This document shows, piece by piece, positions 1,532 through 62,505 of a stretch of 64,000 bases of DNA. Positions within the stretch are counted from its first letter, which is position 1. Every line of letters starts with the position of its first letter. Under the pieces are notes generated by a model. It had not been told where the DNA came from and did not search any database. It saw only the letters and a list, made by a program, of their open reading frames with translations. The position numbers and the translations under genes were made by a program. This stretch comes from an uncultured Thermogutta sp. Lineage in GTDB: Bacteria > Planctomycetota > Planctomycetia > Pirellulales > Thermoguttaceae. The stretch covers positions 62,001 to 126,000 of the forward strand of contig CAKZMM010000083.1 in the NCBI GenBank assembly GCA_937128505.1, in the 5' to 3' direction.

Positions 1532-2728
1532 TTAGTACACACCGTATTCTCGAGTAAACTCGGTCATTGCCCGCACGTTTTCGACTTTCGTATCGTCTTG
1601 CATTATCGCGGAGGCGTCCATGATGTAACCGCCATTTCTCGCGACACCATCGATTACCTTCTTGCAATATTCACGCACCTCATCGGGAGTGCCGAACGCC
1701 AGTAAATCGTTCGGAATTCCGCCGCTAATGCAGAACTTCTCGCCGACGGTTCGGTAAACTTCAAAAATGTCGCCGCGGTCAACATGGTAAATAATGCTCA
1801 ACTCGGGCAGTTGAGCAATGTATTTCAGGTTGGGATTCCATTCGCCTTCGGCATAAAAGAGAGTTTGGATCCCCTGTCTCCACAGGTCCTCGATAATCCA
1901 CTTCAGGGTCGGCCAGTAAAAACGTTCGAATTGCTGGGGTGATAGGAAGGGCATGCACCCCCGGTGCATCCATAGACCTACCGGGAGCTGTTTATTAGGA
2001 TCGGAGGTCAACAAGGCCACTTTAAGAAGGTGGGGGGCCAAAGCTTCGCAAGCTGCTTCCACTTTTTTCGGTTGCCTGTAAAGATCCATGCATAAGCCTT
2101 TGTAGCCCCGCAGCTTGTCGGCGATGATATCGAAGGGAGCTTTTAAGATTCCGGCGAGAGCGGAAACCGTCCCGGATTCTCGTCGCAGCCGGGCAATCTG
2201 CTCGCCAAAGGCGTCGAAATAGCGCATCATTGCCATTCCGCCTTTGACAAACGCGAGATTGTTCCTCATGGTGGCCGGTTCCCCTGGCGTGACCACGTCC
2301 CGGCTGACCCGCGGCAACCATACGTTGTATAAGTACCCGGTTGGATCCGCGACCAATAGATCGTACTCCTCGGGCTTCATGAACGCCTGTTCCTCCGGCG
2401 GTTCCAAGTATTGAAATGGCTTATCGGCCGGGAGGTGAACGCCGGGAATGGCGTAATAGGTGAGCCCGATTGCGGTCGTTAGCCCCGTCCAAACATAAAC
2501 CATATTGGGTACGACGGCATCCCAATCGAAATCCGCCGCGCACTTACACGCCGCATCGAAAGCTTTTCGATAATCGTGAGTGACTTCTTGGCATGTATAA
2601 CCGGCATACTTTGCGGTAAATTCAGCGACAAACGGCCGGATAGGGATTCGATCCGGCTTTTTATTTCGCATCGCCGTTACATAACGCTGAAGCCGTTCTT
2701 GGTAAAGTTTTTCTTTTTCGTCGCTCAT
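1532..2728 (-). CDS. Uroporphyrinogen decarboxylase-family (MtaA/CmuA-like) methyltransferase
   Basis: A 398-aa protein of the UroD/MtaA superfamily, cytoplasmic TIM-barrel enzymes that move methyl groups between corrinoid proteins and thiols or other methyl donors. The N-terminus has the family's RIPIRPFVAEF strand. C-terminal landmarks are YAEGEW (about 293-298), YHVD (about 315) and FCISGGIPNDLL (about 334-345), in the order E...H...C expected for metal ligands. The HxCGN signature of classical MtaA is absent and YAEGEW occupies its place, so this is probably a different subfamily. Together with the downstream corrinoid gene it forms a plausible two-component methyl-transfer module. It is not HemE: the N-terminal HemE signature is missing and a corrinoid gene is adjacent. 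Confidence 0.85.
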   Translation of the reverse strand: MSDEKEKLYQERLQRYVTAMRNKKPDRIPIRPFVAEFTAKYAGYTCQEVTHDYRKAFDAACKCAADFDWDAVVPNMVYVWTGLTTAIGLTYYAIPGVHLPADKPFQYLEPPEEQAFMKPEEYDLLVADPTGYLYNVWLPRVSRDVVTPGEPATMRNNLAFVKGGMAMMRYFDAFGEQIARLRRESGTVSALAGILKAPFDIIADKLRGYKGLCMDLYRQPKKVEAACEALAPHLLKVALLTSDPNKQLPVGLWMHRGCMPFLSPQQFERFYWPTLKWIIEDLWRQGIQTLFYAEGEWNPNLKYIAQLPELSIIYHVDRGDIFEVYRTVGEKFCISGGIPNDLLAFGTPDEVREYCKKVIDGVARNGGYIMDASAIMQDDTKVENVRAMTEFTREYGVY

Positions 2729-4590
2729 GGCTGAACTAGTCCTGGGCTAACAGTCGTTCGTAAATCAAAAAAGTCCCGGCTTACAGTTCCGACCTTTAAC
2801 AACCCCCAGGGCCTAAAGGGCATCTTTAGGCCCGGCGCATAAGGTGCAAACCTACCGAACGGCTTAATTCGAATTGCACTCGTGATGCTCGCAGTTCCTC
2901 TTGACTGCCGACTCCCACATTTTGTAATGGCTCAGCCCCTGGTTGCTCGCGATTTTTTCCGATCAAGACATTTCACAAAAGCTTTTTGGAAACGACGCTC
3001 TAGCTTGTTCCGACGCGTGACTGCTAGTTCTCCTCATCATTCTGTACAAATGTTTCCCGAGGCTTGGAGGGTTTATGACCGATAGCAACAGACTGCAATC
3101 TGACACCTTCAACGCAAGGGGCGAACTTCCCGCGAGTATTTTCGGCTATCAGAGCTAATTCCATTCTTCCAAGGACGGTTCCAATCTGAGCAAGCCCCTT
3201 GATACCCCCGTGCCGTCAGAAGGAGTTGATCGGTATTTCTACGGCATGCCGATAGGTTGAGCCTCCGAATCTCGATGCGGCAAACGCAAGCCGTGGGAAG
3301 CATGATATAATGCCGATCTGTAAGGCCGCAATATAGCCGTCCCTCCCCTATATGTCAACAAAACCTCGTCTCGTCGTACCTTACGATGTGTACCGGTGCG
3401 ATTCGGGCAATCCTCGAAATATGCCGCAAATTATTCAGCCAGGAGGTCCGGCAATCCCCTACCAGTCTTGACTGCATTGATTTGTCGATCTTATCGCCCG
3501 AGAGGAGATAGCGTCGCTACGTGGTCAATGAGGCGGTTCTGGGTTGTAGCTGCCCCACAAATCGCGGGAGCTTAACGTGATAGTCTTGTCACACGAGAGC
3601 ATCCGAGGGTGTTCGATGGGCTTGCGCTTCGCACGGGAAAATCGGCTTTGCCTTGTGACCGGCGGGTTTCCGGCAGCATAGCTCAGAGAAGAGGGCAAGC
3701 TTTTTGAGAGCGTTACACGGTAACTTCGCGGTAGCTTCGTTTTGGCTTCCTCATTTCGAACTAAAAAGAATTTCGAATGGTAGACGTTCGAATGCTAGAC
3801 GAATAAAAGGAGTCAAGACGAATTAGAGGAATTACTTTACCTCACCAGGTTTTTTCCCGGGCTTCTCTGCCGTTTAGGGCATGCCTCTTGCGTCGAGAGA
3901 ACTCTCGCTCCGGATCCACTGGGCCTTTCGGCTCAACTCCTTGTTCGGACGGCGAAGAACTCTTGTTTCGTCCAGCCCCAGCCCTGCGAAACGGAAGGAC
4001 CTATCCCGAGGCTAGGATTTGTAGTATCTCCACGCCGCAGCCCTATTAGACGGATGGACCCCCTAAGATCGTCTGCTTTTATTTGTGCCTGGATTGTGCG
4101 ATGCGAGGGAGAGTCCCACCGTGTCAAGATTGCCCGGCTTTTTAACTTGTAGACACTGATACACCAGAAAAATCGCAAGTATAGTGACTTTTAAATTGCT
4201 GAGTTAAGATACCTTCGCCCATTTTAACGTATGCCGAACTTACTTGATGTTGACTAGAATCATAAACAATTGCTGAATCTGAGCTTTCTATCGTTTCGGT
4301 TTACCGCTTGGTGGACCCACCTTGGAGTGGGCTGGAAATCATTGGAGTGGGCTGGAAATCAAGAGCATTGGCGGGCAAAGCGAGTCGACTTAATCTCTGC
4401 AAACTTGCCTATCTCGGAGGAATGCGAGGACTAGGAAACCCGCAGGGGATACATGAGAAAAGCACCAGGGTTTTTGAAAGTTGTGGGAAAACTGAACAAA
4501 GAAAAGATGCAGGCGAAATTTTTGCACGTAACAAATAGCTGGCTTTAGGTGGAATGATGCCCCGAAGGTCCGGCGGAAATCCCGCATTTG
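2729..4590. other. Long gene-free stretch upstream of guaA
   Basis: About 1.9 kb without a convincing gene on either strand: open frames are below 85 codons, have unlike codon use and resemble no family. The only structure I see is a perfect tandem 20-bp duplication at 4322-4361. An AGGAGG-like sequence near 3440 has no start codon behind it. Confidence 0.5.
4322..4361. repeat. Perfect tandem duplication of a 20-bp unit
   Basis: TTGGAGTGGGCTGGAAATCA occupies 4322-4341 and again 4342-4361 with no mismatch. It is intergenic, about 260 bp before guaA. The perfect identity suggests a recent event. Confidence 0.95.
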
Positions 4591-4599
4591 CTATATAAT
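4589..4599 (+). promoter_or_regulatory. Candidate extended -10 promoter of guaA
   Basis: The sequence TGCTATATAAT fits an extended -10 element (TG-n-TATATA, or TATAAT at 4594-4599) 27-31 bases before the guaA start. No clear -35 hexamer is present, which is usual for extended -10 promoters. A GGAGAG ribosome site follows at about 4613-4618. Confidence 0.4.
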
Positions 4600-4625
4600 T
4601 CAGGGTTTCTCCGGAGAGTTTCGAG

Positions 4626-6176
4626 ATGATCAAACCCGCAGAAGAACGAGTACTGGTGTTGGACTTCGGATCGCAGTATGCGCAGCTAATCTGCCGCCGG
4701 GTCCGGGAGCAGCAAGTCTTTTGCGAAATCATCCGCCACGATTTGCCGGCGGAACAAATCGCGTCGCTTCGGCCAAAGGGGTTAATTCTTTCGGGGGGGC
4801 CCGCCAGTGTGTACCAAGCCGGCGCCCCACACTGCGACCCGAAAGTGTTCGAGTTAGGGATCCCAATCCTTGGAATTTGCTACGGGATGCAACTTATCTG
4901 TGAGCTGGTTGGCGGCGAGGTTCAACCGGGACGATCGCGCGAATTCGGACCGGCCGAGTGTCTTCTGCTCCAGTCCGATCCGCTTTTCGAGGGGATAGAT
5001 GGGCGGTTTACCGTTTGGATGAGTCACGGAGATCAGGTGACGAAGTTGCCGCAAGAGTTCGTGGCGCTTGCGCGCACGGATAATTGTGCTTTGGCGGCAG
5101 TGCGGCATCCAGAGCGTTCCATTTATGGGCTTCAATTCCATCCGGAGGTTACTCATACGCCAGTGGGGAGCAAAATCCTTCGTAACTTCGTGGAAGTGGT
5201 GTGCGGGTGCGAACCGCGCTGGAATATGGGCGACTTCGCGGAAGCCGTCATTCAAGAGATTCGCGAGCGGGTAGGAGAGCACCGGGTAATTTGTGCTCTT
5301 TCCGGCGGGGTAGATAGCGCGGTTGTGGCGGCTTTGCTTTCGCGCGCCATCGGCCAGCAGCTCTCGTGTATCCTCGTGGATAATGGGCTGTTGCGAAAGG
5401 GAGAGACCACGGCGGTCATCCATGAATTTACACGGCACTTTAAGACCGACCTGCATGTGGTCCAAGCTGAGGAGCGCTTCTTGGCTGCACTGGCCGGGGT
5501 GCGTAATCCGCAGGAAAAACGCCGAATCATCGGCAAAGCCTTTATCGAATGTTTCTCCGAGGAAGCCGGCAAAATCCGGGGTGCGCGATTTTTGGCTCAG
5601 GGGACACTATATCCGGATGTAATCGAAAGCGGCGGGACTTCCCACGGACCTGCCGCGACCATCAAACTACATCACAATGTAGGCGGGCTACCGGAAAAAT
5701 TGGATTTCGAACTGATCGAGCCGCTTCGTGAGTTATTCAAGGACGAAGTCCGTCGTTTGGGACTCCAGCTCGGCCTGCCGGAGGAAATCGTATGGCGGCA
5801 TCCGTTCCCTGGTCCCGGCTTAGCGGTTCGATGCGTGGGGGAGGTTACCCGCGAGAGATTGGAGAAGTTGCGTGAGGCGGATGCCATCGTGCTCGAGGAA
5901 ATTCGGGCCGCAGATTGGTACCGAAAGACCTCTCAAGCATTTGCCGTGCTTCTTCCCGTTCAGGCAGTCGGAGTGATGGGTGATGCCCGAACGTATGAGG
6001 ACGTCGTTGCCATTCGCTGCGTAGATACGGAAGACTTTATGACCGCGGATTGGACGCGATTGCCTTATGACCTTTTGGCTCGGATTTCCACGCGAATCAT
6101 CAACGAGGTGCCGGGCGTTAATCGCGTGGTTTACGATATCAGCTCAAAGCCGCCCGCGACAATCGAGTGGGAATGA
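4626..6176 (+). CDS. guaA: GMP synthase (glutamine-hydrolysing)
   Basis: Converts XMP, glutamine and ATP to GMP in purine biosynthesis; cytoplasmic homodimer. The 516 aa match the family length. Residues 8-195 are the class I glutamine amidotransferase with nucleophile Cys85 (GICYGMQ) and His172/Glu174 (FHPEV). Residues 200-390 are the ATP pyrophosphatase domain with the PP-loop SGGVDS at 226-231. The C-terminal dimerisation domain ends in the typical PPATIEWE. The ATG at 4626 follows a GGAGAG sequence at a spacing of about 7 bases and a candidate promoter. It stands alone with no guaB nearby. Identification is secure. Confidence 0.98.
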
Positions 6177-6896
6177 ACTTTTCTTGGTCAATTGGCTTGC
6201 CGTTCACTGGTGCCGTAGGCGAGGTTATCGCAACGCCGGGCGACGTCAGTTGGGCAGCATTGGGTCGTCGGCCCTATGCGAGAGGTAATTCGTATTTCAA
6301 CGGTGCCAAACATTTGGACAGGAGCGGGATGGTGGCTGTCGCGGAGCTTGTGGTTTCCGATTCAGGTGACGGAACATAAACGTCGGCTAACGTTTCAGGG
6401 CGTATGGTGGTTGGAGACCCTGGGGTAGCTTTCGAGCGAATCTGTGCGGCGCGGAGAAGAAAAACTATTCGGCACGAAGCGGACACGACACAAGAGCTTT
6501 TCGGGAGTTTAAGGTCGCCAATCGTGGGTTGCTTTCTCGGTGGATAACTGTCTCGACGCTTTCGGCTTGCTCATAAGCGTGTGCCGCGCGTTATTTTCGC
6601 GATATCAAGCGCTCTCGTGTCGCGAAAGTGCGCTTGCCATGAATCCAGTTCGCGGACGTTTGTTTGAATATAATTTTGAGATAAGAAATCCGTCAATTCT
6701 GGGCGAGGGGAGCAAGGCGGAGAGCTGTCAAGCCCCGCGGAGGTGGCTGAAAAGCCAATCTCCGTCCTGCATTGATTAGTATCTTACTGCTCACTACGTG
6801 GAGTTTTTCCAAGGTTTACTGCCCAGTATTATTCAGGCTCAATCCAACGGGAATGTGGAAGCACTCAAAGAAGGGGTACTTCGATAACAGGAAGGA
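6177..6896. other. Intergenic region after guaA
   Basis: About 720 bp in which I see no gene, RNA or clear terminator. Small open frames here are chance. Confidence 0.5.
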
Positions 6897-8102
6897 ATGA
6901 TGGCAACCGTAGCCGTTCCGCGGGTCGAAGAGATCATGGTAGCCAACCCATTGGCGGTATCGCCGGATACCGCCGCGGTGGAGGCCGCGAAAATAATGTG
7001 CCACCAGAATATTGGAGCTGTCGTAGTTTGTGATGGGGATAATATTGTCGGAATCCTGACGGAGCGGGACGTGCTACGGCGGGCCGCGTGCGCGGAAAGT
7101 TGGCGGGAGGTGCCCGTGAAGGAGCTTATGACGCCGCGACCCATCACCGTGCGGGTGGGCGAAAGCTTGTGGAAAGTAGGGCAAATCCTTCGCGACCATT
7201 TGGTCCGGCACTTGCCGGTGACAGAAGATGGGCGATTGGTGGGAATGCTATCGGTTCGTGATTTGCTACGGCATTCCACTCAACTTCTGGAGGCAATGGT
7301 GCAGGAACGTACCCATGCCTTACGAGCGAAAACGGAGGCGCTGGAGGCCAGGGACAAGTTGATCCAGCGTCATTTGCAGGTAGCTGGGAAGACACAGCGG
7401 CAGATGTTGCCTCCGCTTGAATGCGAATATCCCCCGCTCAGCATTGCCGTGCTTTATCATCCCTATGATCAGGTGAGTGGAGATTACTATGATCTGGTGC
7501 CGATGAATGGGGAACAGTTGGCCATCCTCATTGCCGATGCATCAGGTCACGGACTGGCTGCCGCACTGGTGTCGGTGGTGACTAAAGCCGTTTTTTTCAC
7601 AGAAGGTCGGCGGAGCGAAACCCCGTCAGCGGTTCTGAACTTAATGAATGAGCGGGTTTTGGACCTGATCGAGGGCGAACATTTTGTGACGATGTTTTAC
7701 TGTTTAATCGATCGAAAAAGCCTTGTGGCACGCTTCGCCAGCGCGGGGCATCCGGCGCCACTTTGGTTCCGAGCCGGTTGCCGGGCGATCGAACGCCTGC
7801 ATGCTTCGGGAATTATGCTGGGCGTGGAGACTGTGCCCCGATTCGAGGAGAACACCGTTCAGCTCGGGCCCGGTGATGCCTTGCTCCTTTTTACCGATGG
7901 TTTGGTTGAGTGCGCGGACGGAAAGAGGAATCGCTTTGGAGAAGACCGTCTTTGCGAGCTCTTTGTGGGTTTGGCTTCGAAGAGTGCGCGAGAGATCCGT
8001 CGCGATTTGGCCACCGAATTCCAAGAGTTTCGAGGCGAAGCTCCCGTGGGGGATGACGTCTCGTTTATTGTGATCAAGGTCGATCCGGAGCTGGAGAAAT
8101 AA
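6897..8102 (+). CDS. CBS-domain PP2C (SpoIIE/RsbU-type) serine phosphatase
   Basis: A 401-aa cytoplasmic signalling phosphatase. Residues 10-60 and 75-130 are two CBS motifs (VGILTERDVLRR and VGMLSVRDLLRH), a Bateman module that usually binds adenine nucleotides. Residues 130-170 are a charged helical linker. Residues 180-398 are the SpoIIE-type PP2C domain with metal-binding acidic residues in SGDYYD, IADASGHG, LFTDGLVE and GDDVSFIVIK. In the RsbU family such domains dephosphorylate anti-sigma-factor antagonists, so an output in partner switching is likely, but no antagonist or anti-sigma gene is nearby. The start may be ATG 6897 or ATG 6900; an AGGAAGGA sequence directly precedes them. Confidence 0.9.
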   Translation: MMATVAVPRVEEIMVANPLAVSPDTAAVEAAKIMCHQNIGAVVVCDGDNIVGILTERDVLRRAACAESWREVPVKELMTPRPITVRVGESLWKVGQILRDHLVRHLPVTEDGRLVGMLSVRDLLRHSTQLLEAMVQERTHALRAKTEALEARDKLIQRHLQVAGKTQRQMLPPLECEYPPLSIAVLYHPYDQVSGDYYDLVPMNGEQLAILIADASGHGLAAALVSVVTKAVFFTEGRRSETPSAVLNLMNERVLDLIEGEHFVTMFYCLIDRKSLVARFASAGHPAPLWFRAGCRAIERLHASGIMLGVETVPRFEENTVQLGPGDALLLFTDGLVECADGKRNRFGEDRLCELFVGLASKSAREIRRDLATEFQEFRGEAPVGDDVSFIVIKVDPELEK

Positions 8103-8433
8103 AGTTCCTCAACAAAGTAGGCGGATGATGAGATCTGAAAGTTCAAAAGTCCTCTCAGGCTTACGATGGTACCTCCTTGATTGTGACGAGAATGGAACGC
8201 GGCCTTCGGTTCAGTAAGGAACCCGGGAGACAAGAAGCGAGGCGAACTAACCCTTCCGCGCGCGGTATCAGGACTTGGGTGGCATACCCTGCCATGGAAG
8301 TGTGAGTAGGCTCGTTAATTGGGTCCCCAGCAAAAAAGCGGGCGGAAAAAACTAATAAGATACGGTGGCGTTCAGTCGCAAGAATTTCTTGATCGCGCAA
8401 ATCTTGGGTTGTGGGTGGGACCACGTTCCGGCT
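8103..8433. other. Spacer before the helicase gene
   Basis: About 330 bp with no recognisable feature. An in-frame GTG at 8365 would extend the helicase by 23 residues, but these do not look like the family's N-terminus. Confidence 0.4.
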
Positions 8434-10398
8434 ATGCTCACTGTAGAAGACGTGTTAGGACCGGATGGAATTCTTGCGCGGCGACTTCCCCGGTACGAGT
8501 ATCGGCCGGAACAGTTAGAGATGGCTCAAGCGGTCGCCGAGGCATTTGAAACGAGGACGCCGCTCATTGTTGAAGCTGGGACCGGCGTGGGCAAAAGTTT
8601 CGCCTATTTGGTGCCGGCTATTCTTGCGACTTGCCCAGAAACCGCTGTCGGGGAACCCTTAAAACGAGTCATCATTTCTACCGGCACGATTAATCTGCAA
8701 GAGCAATTACTCAATAAGGATATTCCCACCCTAAGGGCTCTTCTCCCTTGCGAATTCACCGCGGTCCTAGTCAAGGGACGTCAGCATTACCTAAGTCTAC
8801 GTCGGCTCTACCGAGCTTTGGACCAGGCAGGCAGCTTGTTCTTCGAGGATGAGCTGGATGAATTACACAAGATCCATGAGTGGGCGAGGAATACGACCGA
8901 TGGCTCGCGTTCCGATCTAGGCTTTGAGCCGGTGGAGCAGGTTTGGGAAGCAGTTGTGTCGGATCATTACAACTGCTTGGGAAAATCTTGCCCGACTTAC
9001 AATGAGTGTTTTTATTTTCGTGCTCGTTGGCGAATGCTTCGGGCGCAAATTCTAGTGGTCAATCACGCGCTATTCTTCACGGATTTAGCTTTACGTGGGC
9101 GGGGCGGTGGTGTGCTCCCGGATTATGAGGCGGTGATCTTCGACGAGGCGCATGAGATTGAGGAGGTCGCTTCTGCGCAACTCGGTGTAGCGCTGAGTAG
9201 CCGCCAGATCGACCTGGTTCTCAACCGTTTGCACCACCCGCGCTATAATCGGGGTTTGCTGGTACAACTAAATCTCGTCGAGGAGCAAAACCTGGTGGCC
9301 GAGTGTCGGGGGAGGGCCCAAAAGTTCTTTGATGCCGTAGTCAAATGGCGTCAGCAATCTTCGAAAAACGGGCGGGTGGATCAGGGCGGGACCTTCTCGT
9401 CCGAACTCAGCGAAGGCCTCCGGAAACTGGCCCGGATTCTTGGAGTGTGTCTTGATCGATTCCTGGATCCTGAAATCCGCCAGGATCTCACCGCTGCGGC
9501 TGAAAGGCTGCGTGCATTAGCCGACTCGCTGGATGCCTGGTGCGAGCAGCGGCTTCCGGAGACGGTTTACTGGGTGGAATTGGGCGAGGGGCGCCGCCCG
9601 GCTGTGATTTTGAAGGCGGCACCGATTGATGTGGGTTCCATTCTATCGGAACAACTTTATCAACGGGTCTCGCCGGTAATCATGACGAGCGCGACTTTGT
9701 TTGCACCGGGATCCGGATTCAAGTATTTTCAGACTCGTGTGGGGCTTTCTGGGGTGAAGACCTTACAATTGGGCAGCCCTTTCGATTACCGTAGCCAAGT
9801 CCAGCTTATTCTCGTCGATGGGATGCCCGATCCTAGTCTCGACTCCGATGGCTACCAAGCAGCTTTGGTGCGGGTGATCCCTCGGTATTTGGCGAGAACG
9901 GATGGTCACGCCTTCGTACTTTTTACCAGTTATGATCTCCTGAAAAAGGTCGCCACAGGGCTGAAACCATGGCTAACCGAGATGAATATGCCGCTCTTGG
10001 TCCAGGGCGAGAAACTTTCGCGAACTCAGCTTTTGGAAAAGTTCAAACGTACCCCGCGAAGTGTGCTTTTCGGCACGGATAGCTTTTGGCAGGGTGTGGA
10101 TGTACCGGGCGATGCCCTGCGGAACGTAATCATTACGCGTCTTCCATTCTCGGTGCCGGACCTTCCCTTGGTGGAAGCCCGAATAGCCGCCATTCGGTCG
10201 CAAGGAGGCAATCCATTTCATGAGTACCAGGTCCCTGAAGCGATTCTGAGGCTAAAGCAGGGATTTGGGCGGCTTATTCGCTCGAAAACCGACACTGGAA
10301 TCGTGGTCATTCTGGATTCGCGGGTCCTGCTCAAGAACTACGGCCGGTGGTTTCTGGAGGCTCTTCCGCCTTGCCAGCAGGAAGTCGAGGTGGCTTAA
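8434..10398 (+). CDS. dinG: DinG/YoaA-type ATP-dependent helicase with a modified Fe-S site
   Basis: A superfamily 2 XPD-like 5'-3' DNA helicase of about 654 aa. It shows a Q-motif-like YRPEQLEMA, Walker A EAGTGVGKS, the DEAH box FDEAHEIEEV, motif III MTSATL and the C-terminal helicase motifs DSFWQGVDVPG and QGFGRLIRS. The Fe-S domain keeps a C-x4-C-x5-C cluster (CLGKSCPTYNEC, bases about 8972-9010). The first expected cysteine, in the KGRxxYxC motif, is serine instead (KGRQHYLS, about 8775-8798). ATG 8434 is preferred over GTG 8365 because family homology begins at LTVEDVLGPDG. Likely roles are DNA repair and resolving R-loops or replication blocks. Confidence 0.9.
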   Translation: MLTVEDVLGPDGILARRLPRYEYRPEQLEMAQAVAEAFETRTPLIVEAGTGVGKSFAYLVPAILATCPETAVGEPLKRVIISTGTINLQEQLLNKDIPTLRALLPCEFTAVLVKGRQHYLSLRRLYRALDQAGSLFFEDELDELHKIHEWARNTTDGSRSDLGFEPVEQVWEAVVSDHYNCLGKSCPTYNECFYFRARWRMLRAQILVVNHALFFTDLALRGRGGGVLPDYEAVIFDEAHEIEEVASAQLGVALSSRQIDLVLNRLHHPRYNRGLLVQLNLVEEQNLVAECRGRAQKFFDAVVKWRQQSSKNGRVDQGGTFSSELSEGLRKLARILGVCLDRFLDPEIRQDLTAAAERLRALADSLDAWCEQRLPETVYWVELGEGRRPAVILKAAPIDVGSILSEQLYQRVSPVIMTSATLFAPGSGFKYFQTRVGLSGVKTLQLGSPFDYRSQVQLILVDGMPDPSLDSDGYQAALVRVIPRYLARTDGHAFVLFTSYDLLKKVATGLKPWLTEMNMPLLVQGEKLSRTQLLEKFKRTPRSVLFGTDSFWQGVDVPGDALRNVIITRLPFSVPDLPLVEARIAAIRSQGGNPFHEYQVPEAILRLKQGFGRLIRSKTDTGIVVILDSRVLLKNYGRWFLEALPPCQQEVEVA

Positions 10399-10991
10399 AA
10401 AACCGCATGGCTCACTGCTGTTATTGTTTTCGACTGTTGCATTCTTTCAACATTGCGCGTTCCGACAAAACAACACGATCTTGCAGCCCTCTTTCTTTTC
10501 TGCACACGTTGACGTCCTAGACAACTCGTTTTCTGGCCCACCGATCATGCCTCCCAACACACGGGTGTCGTGCGCCTGGCAGAACCTATTCGCCGCACTG
10601 AAGCGAAATAAGCTATATTCCATTGGCGGAAGGTCTTGAGCGACCGACGCGTGGCATCAAACGTTCAAATCAGTCGGACCACAAGCCGGGTGGCGGAAGT
10701 ACCGGTAGGAGCGACGAGGATTGCACTGTCTTGTGCCTTTCAAATCTGTAGAAGCTTAGAGACTCAACGGCCGGTACAGGGTGTTGTTGAGTTATTGAAA
10801 CGGTGCTGCTCAGCCATTGAAAGGATTCCTTGGGAATAAATTCGGAACAAAATCGCTAAATAACGACTTGTGTTTTTTACATCGGGTTCGGTCTCAGAAT
10901 CGCATGAATGCCTTTTGTGTGAAGCCTCTAGGATGACGAAGGCCAAGCGCCCTCCGGTTTGTCCCATGAGGACTCGAATTCAGATCGGGCA
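10399..10991. other. Intergenic region before the Tad locus
   Basis: About 590 bp with no gene that I can support. It probably contains the promoter of the Tad genes, but I see no convincing boxes. Confidence 0.45.
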
Positions 10992-12362
10992 ATGAGTCTG
11001 CACCATGGAGTAGGTTCTTATCCGAAAATTGGGTCGAAGATGAAGGTTGCGAGTCCTTTCTTATCGCGCGGTACCGATTCGCGCCAACCGAGCTTTGAGG
11101 AGCTTAAACAGCGTATCCACAGTAAGCTTGTGGACAAACTGGATTTATCGCGGCTCGGGGAATTGGAAGGCGAGATCCTTCGCCGCGAAATCCGCGTGGT
11201 GGTTGAGCATCTCTGTGATACCGAACAGACGATGCTCAACCGCAGCGAGCGCGAGCGGCTTATTGACGAGGTACTCGACGAAGCCCTCGGATTGGGGCCG
11301 CTAGAATCGCTGCTCAAGGATCTAAGCATCAGCGATATCTTGATCAATGGCCCCAAGCAAGTATACGTGGAGCGGCGGGGAAAGTTGGAAAAAGTAAACG
11401 TCACTTTTCGTGACAACGATCATCTGCTTCAAATCATCGACCGCATCATCTCCAAAGTAGGACGTCGCGTGGACGAAACTTGCCCGATGGTCGATGCCCG
11501 TATGCCGGATGGATCGCGATTCAATGCGATCATTCCGCCGTTGGCCTTGGATGGACCCGCAGTATCGATTCGCCGCTTCGGGGCCAATCCGCTGAAGCTC
11601 GAGGATCTGTTGACACTGAAGGCATTTACCCCGGAGATGGTGATGCTCTTGGAGGGAGCCATTAAAGCGCGACTGAATATCATTATCTCCGGCGGCACCG
11701 GTTCTGGGAAAACCACTCTGCTGAATATTCTCTCAAGCTTCATTCCGAATCATGAGCGGATCATATCGATCGAAGATGCTGCCGAATTGCAATTGCAGCA
11801 AGAGCATGTCGTTCGTTTGGAGACCCGTCCGCCGAATATCGAGGGGAAGGGCGAAATTACCGCGACCGATCTGGTACGAAATGCCCTACGTATGCGGCCC
11901 GAGAGAATCATCATCGGCGAATGCCGCGGGGCGGAGGCCTTGGATATGCTTCAGGCCATGAACACGGGGCATGAGGGCTCGCTGACCACCTTGCATGCGA
12001 ATTCCCCCCGGGACGCAGTGGCCCGGCTGGAAACGATGATCATGATGGCCGGTTTCGAGCTACCGGTGAAAGCGATGCGTCAGCAGATCGCCAGTGCGGT
12101 TGATCTCATCGTCCAGGCAAGCCGCCTTCAAGGGGGGGCCCGAAAGGTGACCCATATTACGGAAGTCGTGGGCATGGAACAGGATACGGTTGTCATGCAA
12201 GACATTTACACCTATGTGCAGGATGGGATCGACGAGCACGGCCGCGCATTCGGGCGATTCATTTCGCATGGGATCCGGCCGACTTTTATGGGGCGGCTGG
12301 AGGCAGCAGGGATCCGTTTGCCGGCGAGTGCCTTCCGAGAACGGGTCATGCTGGCCGATTAA
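10992..12362 (+). CDS. tadA: CpaF/TadA secretion ATPase
   Basis: Hexameric ATPase powering assembly of Tad (Flp-type) pili at the cytoplasmic face of the inner membrane. An N-terminal helical region ([15 protein letters not shown]) precedes the conserved [21 protein letters not shown] and the T2SSE core. The core has Walker [10 protein letters not shown], the Asp box ([11 protein letters not shown]), Walker B ([19 protein letters not shown]) and the His box ([14 protein letters not shown]). About 456 aa from ATG 10992. TTG 10959 and ATG 11040 are alternative starts, and homology only becomes firm after 11040. TadB and TadC follow on the same strand, but after a 600-bp gap. Confidence 0.95.
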
Positions 12363-12408
12363 GCTACCCAAGCGTATTTCTCGCTTTCCCGGGGCATCAA
12401 GGAACCTC

Positions 12409-12446
12409 GTGAACAAGCGGGCTGGAGGTGAGCAAGTGGGCTGGGA
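12409..12446. repeat. Tandem duplication of a 19-bp unit
   Basis: Two adjacent 19-bp units, 12409-12427 and 12428-12446, share GTGARCAAGYGGGCTGG with a few mismatches. Confidence 0.75.
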
Positions 12447-12510
12447 ACTGGCGTCATGATCCGTGCCGACCAGTGTAATCCAAAATAGTGCAGCACAGCG
12501 GAAAATCGGG

Positions 12511-12567
12511 GATGAATAAAGAAGTCGCAGATGAATGAAGAAATCGGAGAAGAATGAGAAATACGGA
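12511..12567. repeat. Three tandem 19-bp purine-rich units
   Basis: Units at 12511-12529, 12530-12548 and 12549-12567 follow GATGAATRAAGAARTCGSA with increasing divergence. They are exactly in register with a 19-bp period. Confidence 0.85.
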
Positions 12568-12962
12568 TGACTCCAGATTCCGAGGGACATGAGAGCAGAA
12601 ATGATCCAAGCCGACGCAGTGGGTGCTGGGGCTGATGCACCTCGCAAGGGATTCACGTAGCGACGAGAAAAGCTCTTTGGAAAGGCGGTTAACCTTCTTG
12701 GACTACCTGCGAAAGAGGCGGTTTCCATATCTGATTCGCGTCTAATTCGCGCTATTTATCGTCGCAGCTGTGTGCGCGGAGTCGAGGTTTTATGCTCCCG
12801 GCATACCCCGCATAATTGCAAGCAAATCAGTCGGCACGATAATCTGAAATACTTCAAGCGTGATTCTCGGTGGGATCAAGAGGGCTTGATCCTGTGGCGG
12901 AATGTGCCGGATTTAATTTAAGCCATGTCACTTATCACGTCTGAGCTGAAGCGAGACTCGTG

Positions 12963-13940
12963 ATGAGCATCAACATCATCCTGCTCACGGCGGTGGCGGT
13001 TTTCATCGGTGTAGCCGCGCTTATCATCGGTCTTTACCTGAGCTTTCGCGGTGACCACGAAAGCAAAGTTGAATCGCGGCTTGCCCTGCTTGCAGAACAG
13101 GTTCAATCCGGCGGCAAAAAGGGGAAAAAACAGAAAAAAGGACTCCTCTTGGAAACGATGGACGAGGGGCCACAAATCTTCGAGCAGCTTCTGAGCCGGT
13201 TTGGAGGACTGCGATCGCTGCTGCGACAGGCAGATGTCAATCTGCCGCCAATTTACCTTATCGGCATGATGATCGGTTTTGGGATAGCGGGTACCTTGGC
13301 GGCAGTGCTGAGCCGACTACCGTTGGCCCTGATGCCACTTGCAATGGTCGCCGGACTTTTCCTGCCAATCGGGTGGCTACTTTGGAGGAGGAAACGCCGC
13401 CAGCGGACATTCGCCACCCAATTGCCAGAGGCCATGGATATGCTGGCACGCGCGCTCCGAGCCGGGCAAAGCCTCAACGCAGCCATTGGGCTGGTCAGCC
13501 GGGAAATACCTCCACCCCTGGGCACAGAATTTGCGCGGGTCTTCGACGAGCAAAACCTCGGCGTTCCCCTCGATGAATCACTCAACGATTTGACGGAGCG
13601 GGTTCCTAATTTGGATCTCAAATTTTTCGCAACCGCAGTCATTCTCCAGCGTCAGACAGGTGGAGACCTTGCGGAAATCCTGGAGAAGATCGGAAACCTG
13701 ATTCGCCAACGCTTCCAAATCTGGGGTCAGGTTCAGGCCCTTACAGGCGAAGGCCGGCTTTCCGGTGTTGTGCTTTTGGCCCTACCTGTTTTCCTTTTCT
13801 TCGCCATGTATTACCTCAACCGAGATTACGTGATGCTGTTATTTACGGATCCCATGGGACGGAAAATGTTGGCCGGAGCCGTTGTCATGCAGATCGTGGG
13901 GGCACTATTTATTCGAAAAATCGTCAATATCAAAGTCTAA
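12963..13940 (+). CDS. tadB: TadB-like inner-membrane secretion protein
   Basis: About 325 aa, T2SSF-domain membrane protein of the Tad pilus platform. An N-terminal hydrophobic segment (residues 4-26) is followed by a basic cytoplasmic loop, two membrane segments (about 98-142) and the T2SSF domain (about 150-270, with ARALRAGQSLNAAI and FATAVILQRQTGGDLAEILEKI). Two C-terminal membrane segments (LPVFLFFAMYYL and GAVVMQIVGALFI) finish it. It partners TadC and the TadA ATPase. ATG 12963 follows an overlapping in-frame GTG at 12960; either may be used. Confidence 0.92.
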   Translation: MSINIILLTAVAVFIGVAALIIGLYLSFRGDHESKVESRLALLAEQVQSGGKKGKKQKKGLLLETMDEGPQIFEQLLSRFGGLRSLLRQADVNLPPIYLIGMMIGFGIAGTLAAVLSRLPLALMPLAMVAGLFLPIGWLLWRRKRRQRTFATQLPEAMDMLARALRAGQSLNAAIGLVSREIPPPLGTEFARVFDEQNLGVPLDESLNDLTERVPNLDLKFFATAVILQRQTGGDLAEILEKIGNLIRQRFQIWGQVQALTGEGRLSGVVLLALPVFLFFAMYYLNRDYVMLLFTDPMGRKMLAGAVVMQIVGALFIRKIVNIKV

Positions 13941-14128
13941 GTCAAGCAAAGTATGAGCCAACGGTTACCGAATGATGAGGCACCGGTTACCCGCAGGGTG
14001 CGAGGCAAAGTCAAGACTGTTTAATCTTACAAAAGTGAGGGTTCTCCGTAGGCGGAAACACAGACCGGCATCCGTCGAGGCCCTTGATGAAAAGTCAATC
14101 AGCGAGTTTTTGACAGGCGAGACCGATC

Positions 14129-15097
14129 ATGTCGCCCGAGTTTTTAAGTTTTGAATCTCTCGTTCCTTGGGCTGTGTTCGGCATGTTTACCGCGTTGGCT
14201 TGGCTGCTGCTCGAGCAGTTGGCAGCTGCCCGACCGCGGGCTTTGGAACGATTGGAGCAGTTCAAACGGCCGCGAGCAGGCAAGGGGTTGGCCGAGACAG
14301 GTCGGGAGAAAAAACGCGACCCAATTTCCGTGGCATTGGAAAAAGCAAGTCCCACTTTGGCTAAGCCGCTACAGCCTAAGTCGGAGGAAGAGCTTAGCCG
14401 GTTACGCTTGCGATTGACGAATGCCGGTTTCCGTGCCCCAAATGCACCGACGATTTTCCTCGGGCTGAAAGGGTTGGGGCTCATATGTGGATTGATCCTC
14501 GCCGGCGGAACTACGTTGATTTTCGGCGGGCTCACGCAACGAAATTTGATCACCGCGGCTTGCCTTGCCGCGGCGCTCTTTTACTTGCCCGATTTGGTCG
14601 TCTGGTGGCTTCGCAGGTATTGCCAAGATCAAATTTTCCTCGGATTACCGGACGCTTTGGACCTTATGGTGGTATGCGTGGAGGCAGGGCTTGGACTCGA
14701 CCAGGCCATGCGGAAAGTCGCAGAGGAAATGAAGCGCTCCTACCCGGTGATTGCTGAGGAATTCGGCATCGCCAATCTTCAGCTTCAAATCGGCAGACCT
14801 CGGGCCGAAGTATTTCACGAATTGGGTATTCGGACGGGGGTAGCGGATCTGCGTAATCTTACTGCCGTGCTGATTCAAGCTGACAAATTTGGCAGCAGCA
14901 TTGCCCATGCATTACGCACGCAGAGTGAGACCATGCGAACACGGCGGAGGCAGCTTGCGGAGGAACGGGCAGCAAAGACCGCCGTGAAGCTCATTTTCCC
15001 GTTGGTCCTTTTCATCTTTCCCGCCATTTTCGTGGTACTGGTAGGTCCTGCCGCCATTACCATTACGCGCGAATTATTTCCAATGATGGGCAGGTAA
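14129..15097 (+). CDS. tadC: TadC-like inner-membrane secretion protein
   Basis: A 322-aa second platform protein of the Tad system. An N-terminal membrane segment (about 9-29) and a charged linker are followed by two membrane segments around residues 108-160 and the T2SSF domain (about 165-290). The domain carries GLPDALDLMVVCVEAGLGLDQAM and LIQADKFGSSIAHALRTQSE, both highly typical of TadC. A C-terminal hydrophobic helix (LIFPLVLFIFPAIFVVLVG) closes it. It lies 188 bp after tadB on the same strand, so co-transcription is likely. Confidence 0.93.
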   Translation: MSPEFLSFESLVPWAVFGMFTALAWLLLEQLAAARPRALERLEQFKRPRAGKGLAETGREKKRDPISVALEKASPTLAKPLQPKSEEELSRLRLRLTNAGFRAPNAPTIFLGLKGLGLICGLILAGGTTLIFGGLTQRNLITAACLAAALFYLPDLVVWWLRRYCQDQIFLGLPDALDLMVVCVEAGLGLDQAMRKVAEEMKRSYPVIAEEFGIANLQLQIGRPRAEVFHELGIRTGVADLRNLTAVLIQADKFGSSIAHALRTQSETMRTRRRQLAEERAAKTAVKLIFPLVLFIFPAIFVVLVGPAAITITRELFPMMGR

Positions 15098-58567: not shown

Positions 58568-59710
58568 ATGCAGGCAGTTACTCGTCGCGCTTTTATCGGC
58601 ACTTGCGCCGTGGCAGGCTGGGCGTGTGCGGGCTGCGGACAAAAGCCGCGTTCCCCCAATCGTGGCGACTCGCCGATTTGGAAACCCTCGCGACCACTTA
58701 GAAAAGTGAGCGCGGCAAATATCCGCAGCGATTTTGAGCCCGGTTACCTGAAGCTACATCGGACCGGAGAACTTCGGCGCCGCGCGGAGGAGCTTTGGAA
58801 GCGGATGAAGCCGTGCAAATTATGTCCGCGAACCTGCGGCATCGACCGGCTGGGTGGGCAACGCGGTTTTTGCGATGCTCCAGACTACTTGGTGATCGCT
58901 TCGTATCACCCCCATTTTGGCGAAGAAGATCCCCTGGTGGGGCGGGGCGGTTCGGGAACCATTTTTTTCTGCCACTGTAGTTTGCGATGCGTTTTCTGCA
59001 TCAACTACGATATCAGCCTGGAAGCGCGCGGAACCCAGGTGGGCATTGAAGATCTGGCGGAGATGATGCTGGATCTTCAGGAGATAGGATGCCACAACAT
59101 CAACGTGGTTACTCCGACGCACTATTCGCCTCATATCCTCTTCGCGCTTGACCTTGCTGCCGAGCACGAGCTGCGCTTACCCTTGGTATATAACACTTGT
59201 GGTTGGGAAAACCTCGAAATTCTGAAAAAGCTCGACGGCGTGGTGGATATCTATCTACCGGATTTCAAATATGCCTCCGGACAAATGGCGGTGAAGTACT
59301 CCACTTGTGCCCCTCCAGGATTCACGGAGACACGGCCCGAAGTGGCCGAAACGTTTACCTCCACCGAGACCTACCCGGAGGTCACAAAAATGGCGATTTT
59401 GGAGATGAATCGGCAGGTGGGCGTAGCCCGGCCGGCGGATGACGGGCTGATGTATCGAGGACTCATGATTCGGCATCTCGTGATGCCGAACGGCGTCAGT
59501 GGCGCCCCAGACGTTCTGCGTTGGATTGCCGAGAACCTGCCGAAGGATACTTATGTCAATATCATGTCCCAGTACCGGCCGATGTACAAGGCGTTCGAGT
59601 ATCCCGAGATTGCCCGGCCGATCACAGCGGCGGAATACCGCGACGCAGTTGAAGCAGCTCAGCAGGCGGGGTTGACAAATTTCCACATCCAGGGGCTGGC
59701 CTTCCTGTGA
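58568..59710 (+). CDS. Radical SAM protein of the PflX type with a Tat/lipoprotein-like signal
   Basis: 380 aa from ATG 58568. The N-terminus MQAVTRRAFIGTCAVAGWAC is followed by AGC: twin arginine, a hydrophobic core and a possible lipobox with Cys23. Residues 83-102 hold a four-Cys region (CKLCPRTCGIDRLGG, then GFC) as in COG1313 PflX proteins. The radical SAM CX3CX2C is Cys137, Cys141 and Cys144 (CSLRCVFC). C-terminal blocks include YNTCGWENLEIL, DIYLPDFKYAS and YRGLMIRHLVMPNG, also PflX-like. The family is thought to be cytoplasmic; a translocation signal here is odd. The next gene, a NapH-NapG fusion, is 53 bp downstream and probably co-transcribed. Confidence 0.88.
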   Translation: MQAVTRRAFIGTCAVAGWACAGCGQKPRSPNRGDSPIWKPSRPLRKVSAANIRSDFEPGYLKLHRTGELRRRAEELWKRMKPCKLCPRTCGIDRLGGQRGFCDAPDYLVIASYHPHFGEEDPLVGRGGSGTIFFCHCSLRCVFCINYDISLEARGTQVGIEDLAEMMLDLQEIGCHNINVVTPTHYSPHILFALDLAAEHELRLPLVYNTCGWENLEILKKLDGVVDIYLPDFKYASGQMAVKYSTCAPPGFTETRPEVAETFTSTETYPEVTKMAILEMNRQVGVARPADDGLMYRGLMIRHLVMPNGVSGAPDVLRWIAENLPKDTYVNIMSQYRPMYKAFEYPEIARPITAAEYRDAVEAAQQAGLTNFHIQGLAFL

Positions 59711-59763
59711 GCCGCTGAGCCGTAGCTGAATCTTCAATTGAAAGCACGACACCCTGAAATCCC

Positions 59764-61188
59764 ATGCGGCGGGCTTCCGAAGGGACAATTTGGTCAAAAG
59801 TGCGCCGTGGGTCGCAAGTGGCGTTCCTCCTCGCTTTCGTGTATTTAGCGATGGCCGGTGCCGCGGGATGGGTGGTTCCCGGATTCTACGGGGCTTTTCT
59901 CGAGTTCGATCCCTTTCCTTGGTTAGTCGGTTCGGTGGCCGCACGCCAGATCACCTCTTTCGGGGCGATCAGCTTGGGGATCATCGTTATAACTGCGATA
60001 TTGGGCCGCGTTTTTTGCGGCTGGGTTTGCCCATTGGGCACATTGCTGGATTTCGCGGCGTGGTTTCGGAAGGTCTTTCGAGGGAGGTTAAAATCGGTCA
60101 AAGTGCCGGAATGGCGATTCGCCGTACTTGCGATGTTGGTGGGTGCGGCTTTGGCAGGAGTTAATTGGGCGGGTTGGATGGACCCCCTGGTCTTAACCTC
60201 CCGAGCGATGAATCTGGGAGCCGGGGACCCAAATCGCGGGATGGCATGGCTGCTTGCGTGGTTCCCTTTGCTGGTGGTGATAGGGCTTGTAGGCTGGGCA
60301 CATCGCTTTTGGTGTCGGGCCCTTTGTCCGCTAGGGGCCTTGCTTTCCGTTTGTGGTCATTGGGCCGTGCTTCGGCGAGAAATTAGCGATCGTTGTGCGC
60401 AGTGTGATCGCTGCACGGATTCCTGCCCGCTCGGGAATTCTTCGATCAAGGGTGCCGCCGTCAATTGTCTTTGTTGCCGTGGCTGCCAAGAGGCTTGTCC
60501 CCACGGGGCCATACGATTTGCGTGGAGTATTCCGCGGGTCGTCGGACGCCATTGCGCCGTGGGCATAAAAAGCTCTGCCAGATTGATGGAAAGTCGGAGG
60601 CTTTTTTTCGCCGCAATGGCAGCCGGGGCCGCCGCCGGTGTGATGGTGCGCAGGTCGGAATCTTCAAGCGTCCTTCGTCCACCGGGTGCCCTTTCGGAGC
60701 GACGGTTTACTGCGCGGTGCGTCGGTTGTGGAGCCTGTATTGCCGCCTGTCCTACAAAAGGTCTTTTACCCCTCCTCCGGGCAGATCGATTGGATGCGCT
60801 TTTTACTCCGCAGCTTATCCCGCAAATTGGCCCCTGTTTGCCGGAGTGCAGCGCTTGTGGTTCGGTATGCCCGACGGGGGCAATTCTGCCGATTGGTCCG
60901 GAACAAAAAAGCCGCATGAAGATTGGCGTTGCAGTCATTGACCCAGAAAAGTGCCTCCCCTGGGCTCGTTACGAACGTTGTTTAGTCTGCCGCGACGCTT
61001 GCCCGCAGGTTTACGCGGCGATCGAACTTCGCAGTGCCGCAAGTCTAACGGGTTTTCGAGTTCCGTCAGGAATTCCATATCCTTCCGTCAAGGAGAGCAA
61101 ATGTACAGGATGCGGCATTTGCGAATACGAGTGCCCTGAGGGAGCGATTCGCGTCGTGCCTGTGGCAAGAGCCATGGCGGAGAATTAG
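59764..61188 (+). CDS. NapH-NapG/MauM-like fused membrane polyferredoxin
   Basis: 474 aa. N-terminal half, NapH-like: membrane helices about 18-40, 64-83, 118-138 and 161-180, with CGWVCPLG (Cys85, Cys89) and CRALCPLG (Cys184, Cys188) and two 4Fe-4S motifs (about Cys211-221 and Cys235-245). Then SRRLFFAAMAAGAAAGVMV (278-296), a Tat-like segment as at the NapG N-terminus, followed by LRPPGALSERRFTARCVGCG, an exact NapG/MauM-style start. Cysteine clusters follow at about 319-329, 358-369, 397-413 and 447-457. NapGH relatives pass quinol electrons to periplasmic proteins. Partner of the preceding radical SAM gene by position. Confidence 0.9.
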   Translation: MRRASEGTIWSKVRRGSQVAFLLAFVYLAMAGAAGWVVPGFYGAFLEFDPFPWLVGSVAARQITSFGAISLGIIVITAILGRVFCGWVCPLGTLLDFAAWFRKVFRGRLKSVKVPEWRFAVLAMLVGAALAGVNWAGWMDPLVLTSRAMNLGAGDPNRGMAWLLAWFPLLVVIGLVGWAHRFWCRALCPLGALLSVCGHWAVLRREISDRCAQCDRCTDSCPLGNSSIKGAAVNCLCCRGCQEACPHGAIRFAWSIPRVVGRHCAVGIKSSARLMESRRLFFAAMAAGAAAGVMVRRSESSSVLRPPGALSERRFTARCVGCGACIAACPTKGLLPLLRADRLDALFTPQLIPQIGPCLPECSACGSVCPTGAILPIGPEQKSRMKIGVAVIDPEKCLPWARYERCLVCRDACPQVYAAIELRSAASLTGFRVPSGIPYPSVKESKCTGCGICEYECPEGAIRVVPVARAMAEN

Positions 61189-61876
61189 CTGTAGCCTATT
61201 CGGTGATCCACAAATACCTGCGTTCTTGCCCCTTCAAGTCGGAACGAGCAAAACCTGCGATACTGGATAGCCGGGCTCACATTTTGAACGTCCGAGGCTT
61301 GAGATCCGATCCGCTTGCCTCAACTTTTCGCACCATCGTTCGTTTTGGCAATCCTGCTTTATCGGGTCGCAAAATCGAGTGTATTGATCGCGATAGTGCG
61401 GTTTTTGGGGAGTGCATGATGCGCGGTAAAAAGTTCGGGTTACCTCAGTCGAAATGAGTAGAGAAGGTCCGGAGGTACGACACGATGGGCATTTCGCCGC
61501 GGTTGAGAATACCGTGCGCCCTGGGCACAAGCGGTGGAAGCAAGGCAATTCCCTCCGCCGCGCGTGAGGGGTTGGAGTCTAGTGCATCACCAGCGATAGG
61601 CTCAGCAATTCCCTCCGCCGCGCGTGAGGGGATGGAGTTCAGGCGTGGACGCGTGGTAAGCGCATGCTAAATGCTACGCGGCTGGCGTGGAAGTAAACCG
61701 CTGTGGCGGGTGGAAGCCCGGGGCTTTGAGGGCTTTTGGGAATTGGTTGAGGCAGATTCGGGAGCTGAGGGGTGTCGCACGAGGTTTACCCCCCAATGTA
61801 AGGGGGTTGAATGCCTCGGTCTGCCAGGGCAGCAGTAGAATCGAAGCCTCGCTAAGGCAGCAAAAGGGTGAGTGTG
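61189..61876. other. Intergenic region with CRISPR-like repeat pair
   Basis: About 690 bp. No gene on either strand is supported; the plus-strand open frame at 61687-62097 mostly runs in the wrong frame over the kinase pseudogene. Contains the direct repeat at 61545-61638. Confidence 0.5.
61545..61638. CRISPR. Two-copy CRISPR-like repeat (orphan or decayed)
   Basis: A 34-bp sequence (starting GCAATTCCCTCCGCCGCGCG, ending TGAGGGG.TGGAGT) occurs at 61545-61578 and 61605-61638 with one mismatch, exactly 60 bp apart. The core CCCTC...GAGGGG can pair and the layout resembles type I-E repeats (stem plus ATGG near the end); 60 bp suits a 28-bp repeat with a 32-bp spacer. With only two copies and no cas genes in the window, a plain direct repeat is possible. 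Confidence 0.35.
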
Positions 61877-62505
61877 ATGGCGATCTTGTCAGGAATCTTT
61901 TCGGAGTGCATCGTAAAAAGCGGCCTTTTGTCGGCGGCGGCACTTGGTCGCTTCCGAAGTCGGCTTTCAAAGGAGGAATCGCCGCAGGCCGTCAAGCAAT
62001 TGGCCCAAGCGCTTTATCGGGCGGGGGGCTGACCAAGTTTCAGATCGAGGCGATTGTCTCAGGCCGTCATCAGCAGTTTGTGCTGGGGAATACGTGATCC
62101 CGGACCGGCTGGGTGGGGGCGGGATGGGGCAGGTGTTCAAGGCCCGGGATCGGACGATGGATCGGCAAGTGGCCTTAAAGACGACGCATCCGGAGCTGGG
62201 TTCTTCGCCGGAGGCGGTGCAGCGGTTTCGTCGGGAAGTGTGGGCCGCAGCCACGCTTCAGCATTCGAATCTTTAAGGAACAGGAAACGATTCACAACAA
62301 CCAGGTCCAGTTCCGAAAGGGTGGTTTTTCTGAGGATCCGCAATTCTTGGATTCTTCCAGCTACGACTTCCGGATTTGGCCCACCAGTCCATGCCATGGT
62401 AACGCCTCCCACGGGGGTGCCGTGGGCGTCCGCTACACCCCGGAAATGCTGGAGATGCTCCAACTGGCCCTCGAACTACGGGCACGCGAATTTATTTCCT
62501 TTTAA
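61877..62505 (+). pseudogene. Broken planctomycete Ser/Thr protein kinase (frameshifts and internal deletion)
   Basis: Three adjacent frames together give the start of a typical planctomycete kinase. Frame 2 from ATG 61877 reads MAILSGIFSECIVKSGLLSA to QALYRAGG. Frame 1 continues with LTKFQIEAIVSGRHQQFVLG. Frame 3 gives EYVIPDRLGGGGMGQVFKAR and ALKTTHPELG, up to TLQHSNL before a TAA at about 62274-62276. Each shift fits loss of one G in a G run (62023-62028 and about 62084-62087). From about 62278 another frame reads EQETIHNNQVQFRKGG and GGAVGVRYTPEMLEMLQLA, ending at TAA 62503-62505. This C-terminal tail resembles those of planctomycete extracellular-domain proteins. Most of the kinase domain is missing, so it cannot be active. 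Confidence 0.8.

Follow-up and report, generated by a model that had tools for sequence, protein, structure and literature searches.

A gene for a radical SAM protein with an export-type N-terminus (RS) is followed by a gene for a NapH-NapG fusion protein (NHG) in the window, by which we mean the whole 64,000-nucleotide stretch of Thermogutta DNA that was analysed, and the same arrangement recurs in other Planctomycetota. We propose that RS is exported and works outside the cytoplasm, and that the adjacent NHG is its dedicated transmembrane electron conduit; in our judgement, this proposal has about an even chance of being correct. The first-pass annotation described the two genes as lying 53 bp apart on one strand, and both open reading frames are indeed present in this arrangement on the plus strand (Table 1). 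The pair is preceded by carA and followed by a kinase-like fragment. The latter, apparently a gene fragment, is a short ORF at 61944-62276 that encodes the first part of a protein kinase domain; its match to PF00069 is below cut-off (E 1.5e-5). In the non-coding stretch 3′ of the pair, a 34-nt repeat is present twice (61545-61638; copies 97% alike, 60 nt from start to start). The six main ORFs scanned in the 54-64 kb part of the window included neither napA nor napB, and a glycyl radical enzyme gene was likewise not seen among them.

Table 1. Positions of the RS and NHG genes and of their sequence features in the window
Feature	Position	Strand	Basis
Radical SAM gene (RS), 380 aa	58568..59710	+	ORF; PF04055; adjoins NHG in six genomes
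Predicted twin-arginine signal with lipobox-like end (aa 1-23, TRRAFIG ... CAGC)	58568..58636	+	By eye; script class Tat + lipobox-like
Four-cysteine motif C83-x2-C86-x3-C90-x11-C102	58814..58873	+	Invariant in 48/48 exported-clade and 52/52 cytosolic rows
Radical SAM cluster motif C137-x3-C141-x2-C144	58976..58999	+	Invariant in 48/48 exported-clade and 52/52 cytosolic rows
Intergenic gap, exactly 53 nt	59711..59763	+	
NapH-NapG fusion gene (NHG), 474 aa	59764..61188	+	RS-linked NHG clade, support 100
First CxxxCP motif, NapH part (aa 85-90)	60016..60033	+	Invariant in 26 aligned NHG proteins
Second CxxxCP motif, NapH part (aa 184-189)	60313..60330	+	Invariant in 26 aligned NHG proteins
Ferredoxin-like region (aa 211-245) with two 4-Cys sets	60394..60498	+	Cysteines invariant (26 NHG)
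Internal RR and hydrophobic stretch (aa 278-297)	60595..60654	+	R278 and R279 the same in all five complete RS-linked NHG of the alignment
NapG-like region (aa 319-457) with four 4-Cys sets	60718..61134	+	16 cysteines invariant in 26 NHG; NF007012 match

RS contains a Radical_SAM domain (PF04055, E 9.2e-9, 36.1 bits against a cut-off of 29.5), in which the cluster motif reads CSLRCVFC. Seven cysteines of the protein (83, 86, 90, 102, 137, 141 and 144) are invariant in both exported and cytosolic relatives. The cluster motifs are intact; RS is a putative SAM-cleaving enzyme, and its four-cysteine motif is a possible auxiliary metal site. No NCBIfam model scored above its cut-off with RS, and a PDB sequence search gave no match at E <= 0.1. 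The best structural match of the RS structure model (P0001; pLDDT 73.8, pTM 0.79, built from 23 sequences) was pyruvate formate-lyase activating enzyme (Z 16.7, rmsd 3.4, 226 residues), which resembles RS in fold but is cytosolic and only about 15% identical. Assignment of RS to the AmmeMemoRadiSam radical SAM enzymes was rejected (TIGR04337, 19.3 bits against a cut-off of 220), although the Cys-rich N-terminus of these enzymes is similar to that of RS. The cytosolic relatives, for which we take the PflX-like name and COG1313 to be the family label, have the same seven cysteines and core residues as RS, but lack its N-terminal extension and have no RSamm, SpeMFS or NHG gene within 1.5 kb (52 rows).

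The N-terminus of the window RS, MQAVTRRAFIGTCAVAGWACAGC, has a twin-arginine motif and a weakly hydrophobic stretch, followed by a lipobox-like CAGC whose -3 residue is atypical compared with the consensus [LVI][ASTVI][GAS]C. No 19-residue window of this signal reached the hydropathy threshold. The Tat-signal models of Pfam and NCBIfam, which miss many signals, gave no match to the window RS at E <= 0.001, and the case for its export is therefore made by the motif and by its relatives. Both features expected of a Tat substrate were found, the motif (TRRAFIG) in the protein and TatC in the window genome (G000).

In a quick tree of 101 RS rows, a branch with SH-aLRT 97 separates 48 rows from the rest; we refer to these 48 as the exported clade. 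Because the relatives were picked by similarity to the window RS (thresholds 1e-30 to 1e-100), the counts given here are not a census. Partial rows (L060, L062, L063, L065 and L140) were excluded from the tree; the TatC comparison below does include L062 and L140. The exported clade includes members from Planctomycetota, Thermodesulfobacteriota, Nitrospirota, Omnitrophota, Bacteroidota, Krumholzibacteriota and Myxococcota. Its N-termini are Tat-like in 41 of the 48 rows and Sec-like in five, and only L158 and L061 have no visible signal; lipobox-like ends were tallied in 17 rows. The tally was made by script and then corrected by eye, which moved L056 to the Tat class and L061 to undetermined. 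Eight cytosolic rows flagged by the same script proved on inspection to be slicing artefacts or over-extended ORFs, and the cytosolic relatives begin at the point where the extension of the exported clade ends. Thus, the cytoplasmic location that the first-pass annotation had named as contrary to its idea was not found, with a Tat-like or Sec-like N-terminus in 46 of 48 exported-clade rows.

The type of signal mostly tracks the presence of TatC in the genome. TatC was found in 37 of 40 genomes with Tat-type RS signals (it was missing from the drafts G294, G295 and G296), and in one of seven with Sec-type signals (present in G309; absent from G297, G316, G329, G392, G446 and G459). These counts exclude genome G298, which has no TatC and whose RS has a very hydrophobic stretch along with an RR motif. 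The association gave a Fisher value of 5e-5 when relatedness was ignored and p 0.11 within Omnitrophota; among Omnitrophota without exported RS, TatC was present in 8 of 15. The RS tree holds only two supported independent signal-type pairs, so a tree-based test cannot reach significance; TatC went along with signal type in 1.7 of the two on average. These data are suggestive of RS export itself being kept when Tat is lost, with too few independent switches for proof. The Sec-type RS are a puzzle: since Sec exports proteins unfolded, their clusters would then have to be built outside.

The same data bear on another reading, in which RS stays inside or faces the cytosol, its N-terminus is a mere membrane anchor and its partner is the cytosolic side of NHG. 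This would place RS where SAM, ferredoxin and cluster assembly all are. It is also in line with the absence of a Tat-signal model match, with L158, a planctomycetotal member of the exported clade that has neither signal nor NHG, and with L138, whose positive charges are more numerous on the C-terminal side of the hydrophobic stretch than on the N-terminal side, so that it may face inward. However, twin-arginine motifs across most of the clade, the lipobox-like ends and the tracking of TatC by signal type all speak against it, and we regard a cytosolic RS as quite improbable.

NHG matched the models of the two subunits in its name, with scores below the curated cut-offs: the NapH model TIGR02163 matched aa 35-252 (E 5.6e-29; 101.4 bits against 213), the NapG model NF007012 matched aa 274-471 (E 7.1e-29; 100.7 against 269), and the NapG/MauM model TIGR00397 gave 86.2 bits against 178.9. 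Two CxxxCP motifs and two ferredoxin-type 4-Cys sets, which characterize NapH/MauN proteins, were present in NHG and across 26 aligned proteins. By analogy with NapH, we infer that the ferredoxin-like region lies on the cytosolic side, and the stretch of aa 278-297 is presumed to be a fifth helix leading to the outside. A hydropathy scan placed helices in the NapH part; the presumed fifth helix was below threshold. A PDB sequence search with NHG returned ferredoxin-type matches only, and its structure model (pLDDT 38) was left unused. In its CxxxCP motifs, ferredoxin-like region, NapG-type set of four clusters and the presence of an exported redox partner gene alongside, NHG resembles NapGH of periplasmic nitrate reductase and the NapH-like systems described in PMC8238504. 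It differs from NapGH in the fusion of NapH and NapG, in its scores and in its partner, which is a radical SAM protein instead of a molybdenum reductase. According to the main text of PMC8238504, NapH is a putative quinone-binding subunit, NapH-like proteins are probably fed by quinol in some cases, and modules of the NapH-like kind have been redeployed alongside reductases and oxidases that act outside the cytosol; this text names no radical SAM partner, and the word "radical" is absent from it. Because modules of this type link membrane pools to extracytosolic enzymes, the natural way to read the pair is with NHG serving an exported RS as redox partner.

Conservation of the linkage was assessed in 294 Planctomycetota genomes and by a scan of the genome collection. 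Of the 294, RS relatives were present in 61 at E <= 1e-30 and NHG relatives in 108 at E <= 1e-15, with adjacent pairs in the window genome, G160 and G145. The collection scan gave 26 loci, with NHG directly after RS in L040 (the contig already seen in G160), L042, L048 and L065. Altogether, RS and NHG were adjacent in six Planctomycetota genomes (the window, L040 (G160/G294), L164 (G145), L042, L048 and L065), in the same order, on the same strand and with some 8 to 78 nt between them. Most of RS in L065 falls in a 100-N scaffold gap, leaving residues 333-380 visible. Since the RS of L042 and L048 are 93% identical, marking the two as near relatives, the pairs represent at most five well separated cases. 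All six RS-linked NHG group in a single clade (support 100) that has a long stem and is set apart from other NHG fusions. The five RS of these pairs that could be placed in the tree also form one clade (support 96), with a single gain of the linkage on the tree. The pair is thus a specific unit that has been kept, yet it has a single origin.

The co-occurrence analysis proposed in the first-pass annotation therefore came out in favour of the pairing, which is conserved and specific on both the RS and the NHG side. Its generality was borne out in part: the linkage holds in six genomes, but it arose a single time and, in our sample, occurs in Planctomycetota alone. The other 43 exported-clade rows have no NHG beside RS, except for the NapH-like gene of L044, and two other members of the window family that were searched (G167 and G1217) have no NHG of the RS-linked type at E <= 1e-60. 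Of the 22 genomes from outside Planctomycetota among the 26 of the collection scan, 17 carry an NHG relative at another place in the genome (E <= 1e-10). A third conserved partner, such as a secreted peptide, had also been suggested; none was found among ORFs of at least 120 aa in five loci and in the 50-64 kb part of the window. Common to the Planctomycetota loci were only RS, NHG and ORFs antisense to them, the flanking genes having changed. With a single gain, seen in Planctomycetota only, the two genes could in principle be chance neighbours, an old juxtaposition preserved by inertia. We consider this very unlikely, as the pairing was kept while identity to the window proteins fell to 60-70% for RS and 44-49% for NHG and the flanks were replaced, and as the RS-linked NHG are a subfamily of their own.

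NapHG fusions also occur beside Tat-type DUF362 or aldo/keto reductase genes in several phyla (L066-L085). In the NHG tree, 21 of 30 rows have a DUF362-like match within 1.5 kb; these labels come from BLAST, and Pfam confirmed DUF362 in L066, L067, L081, L084 and L085 and identified an aldo/keto reductase beside the fusion in L071 and L082. Such pairs share with the window pair the fusion architecture and a Tat-type exported partner gene, but their NHG form a separate clade, are mostly 485-590 aa long (454-504 for RS-linked NHG) and have another partner. The window genome itself has a DUF362-linked NHG pair (L084) in addition to the RS-linked one. In G012 (L085), a cytosolic-type RS adjoins an activase-like gene 3.6 kb from a DUF362-linked NHG; this RS was excluded from the tree and from neighbour counts.

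Adjacency, subfamily specificity, clade-wide signal-like N-termini and intact cluster motifs are all evident at the sequence level. Topology, complex formation, and the direction and source of electron flow are what we infer as follows. RS would be exported, probably by Tat as a folded protein with its clusters, be held at the membrane and act on the outer face of the cytoplasmic membrane. Electrons would enter NHG on the cytosolic side, at the ferredoxin-like region, from a low-potential ferredoxin, with entry straight from quinol less likely. They would then cross the membrane at the NapH part and reach the four outward NapG clusters, which would reduce the RS cluster directly or via the four-cysteine site.

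The source of the electrons is where we depart from the first-pass annotation, which had called the system quinol-powered. Radical SAM clusters need about -450 mV and menaquinol gives about -75 mV, so quinols are far too oxidising for this cluster without energy input, and an uphill drive would be required. Cytosolic ferredoxin acting through the two-cluster ferredoxin-like region, or electron flow in the reverse direction, fits as well and poses less of a difficulty. The same conduit with quinol as the donor, as for NapGH in nitrate respiration, would agree with the homology of NHG to NapH and NapG and with the putative quinone binding of NapH and the probable quinol feeding of some NapH-like proteins (main text of PMC8238504); given the gap in potential, we think it unlikely. 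We hold a similarly low opinion of reverse flow, in which the exported RS would carry out a net oxidation and pass electrons via its four-cysteine site to NHG and then to quinone. The invariant four-cysteine motif, the service of NapH-like modules to oxidases (main text of PMC8238504) and the agreement of NapG clusters as acceptors with the potentials favour this direction. However, the motif is equally invariant in cytosolic relatives without NHG, and a donor would still be required for the first reduction of the SAM cluster. SAM outside the cytoplasm is a second supply problem, which the first-pass annotation did not raise.

Neighbours of exported RS in other lineages are of several kinds. 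Within 1.5 kb, the 48 exported-clade rows have TIGR04337-type radical SAM genes in 11 cases, SpeMFS in seven, NHG in five and DsbD_2-like genes in three (L043, L055 and L137, plus L140 outside the tree). In the 52 cytosolic rows, TIGR04337-type, SpeMFS and NHG neighbours were zero each over the same distance, which is about all the flank that most loci have; these rows exclude L147b, the second, cytosolic-type RS of L147, which has the exported RS at 77 bp and SpeMFS at about 1.2 kb. A NapH-like gene with HGD-D and DUF2229 genes beside exported RS was detected only in L044, where activase/dehydratase-type genes (DUF2229, HGD-D), the NapH-like gene and several radical SAM genes form one run (2559-15059). 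The DsbD_2-like and NapH-like carriers beside exported RS lend support to a conduit role for NHG, and the activase-type genes of L044 would fit its low-potential version, in a single locus.

TIGR04337 proteins near exported RS look Tat-like or Sec-like at all 13 loci with a readable N-terminus. Presence of TIGR04337 was useless as a marker, as 75 of 79 genomes have it (47/50 with exported RS and 28/29 without). SpeMFS is a polytopic spermidine-synthase-like protein with a PF01564 domain amid about 12-13 predicted helices, a G-rich Rossmann motif between two bundles of about six each, and NF037959 scores above cut-off in both proteins tested; positions that we take to be the catalytic aspartates of spermidine synthase look altered in several. 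Among 30 TIGR04337 loci, SpeMFS lay next to the TIGR04337 gene in 4/8 with a signal and 1/22 without (p 0.011), three of the eight signal-bearing loci adjoining exported RS. Exported radical SAM genes cluster with SpeMFS in L045 (4488-9071), L161 (3463-8183), L155 and L182; in L182, consecutive genes encode a TIGR04337 protein with a Sec-like N-terminus, a DsbD-type protein and SpeMFS. Other arrangements include an omnitrophotal locus (L139, 643-8657) that combines exported RS with two M16 peptidase-like proteins, a TIGR04337 protein and a Memo-AMMECR1 fusion, the last two having signal-like N-termini, and a TldD/PmbA-like gene pair directly 3′ of exported RS in Desulfobacterota (L041, 7161-9811; L064, 9160-11810). 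The best TIGR04337 copy of the window genome (L172, 617-3223; G000 C132) is fused to an AMMECR1-type domain (TIGR04335) and has no signal; its ORF extends past the end of the locus.

A wider picture would be extracytoplasmic radical SAM chemistry in several phyla with an exchangeable kit, in which electrons come via NapHG, DsbD-like proteins or NapH with an ATP-driven activase, and SAM via SpeMFS; the window lineage would use NapHG. We offer this tentatively and consider it rather doubtful as a whole.

The cytoplasm is considered the place of radical SAM enzymes, since it supplies SAM, low-potential electrons and cluster assembly, and SAM is not known to occur outside it. The components described here are of known kinds; in the open-access literature searched, we found no report of an extracytoplasmic radical SAM enzyme, nor of a radical SAM clade that is exported and has a conduit dedicated to it. 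In PMC10924467, the sole mention of "radical SAM" concerns a flanking gene. If our proposal is true, radical SAM chemistry would also run outside the cytoplasm, and one lineage would have its own membrane electron conduit for it. This raises testable questions of how electrons, SAM and iron-sulfur clusters reach the outside, and the RS-NHG unit, with only two genes, is small and hence suited to direct tests.
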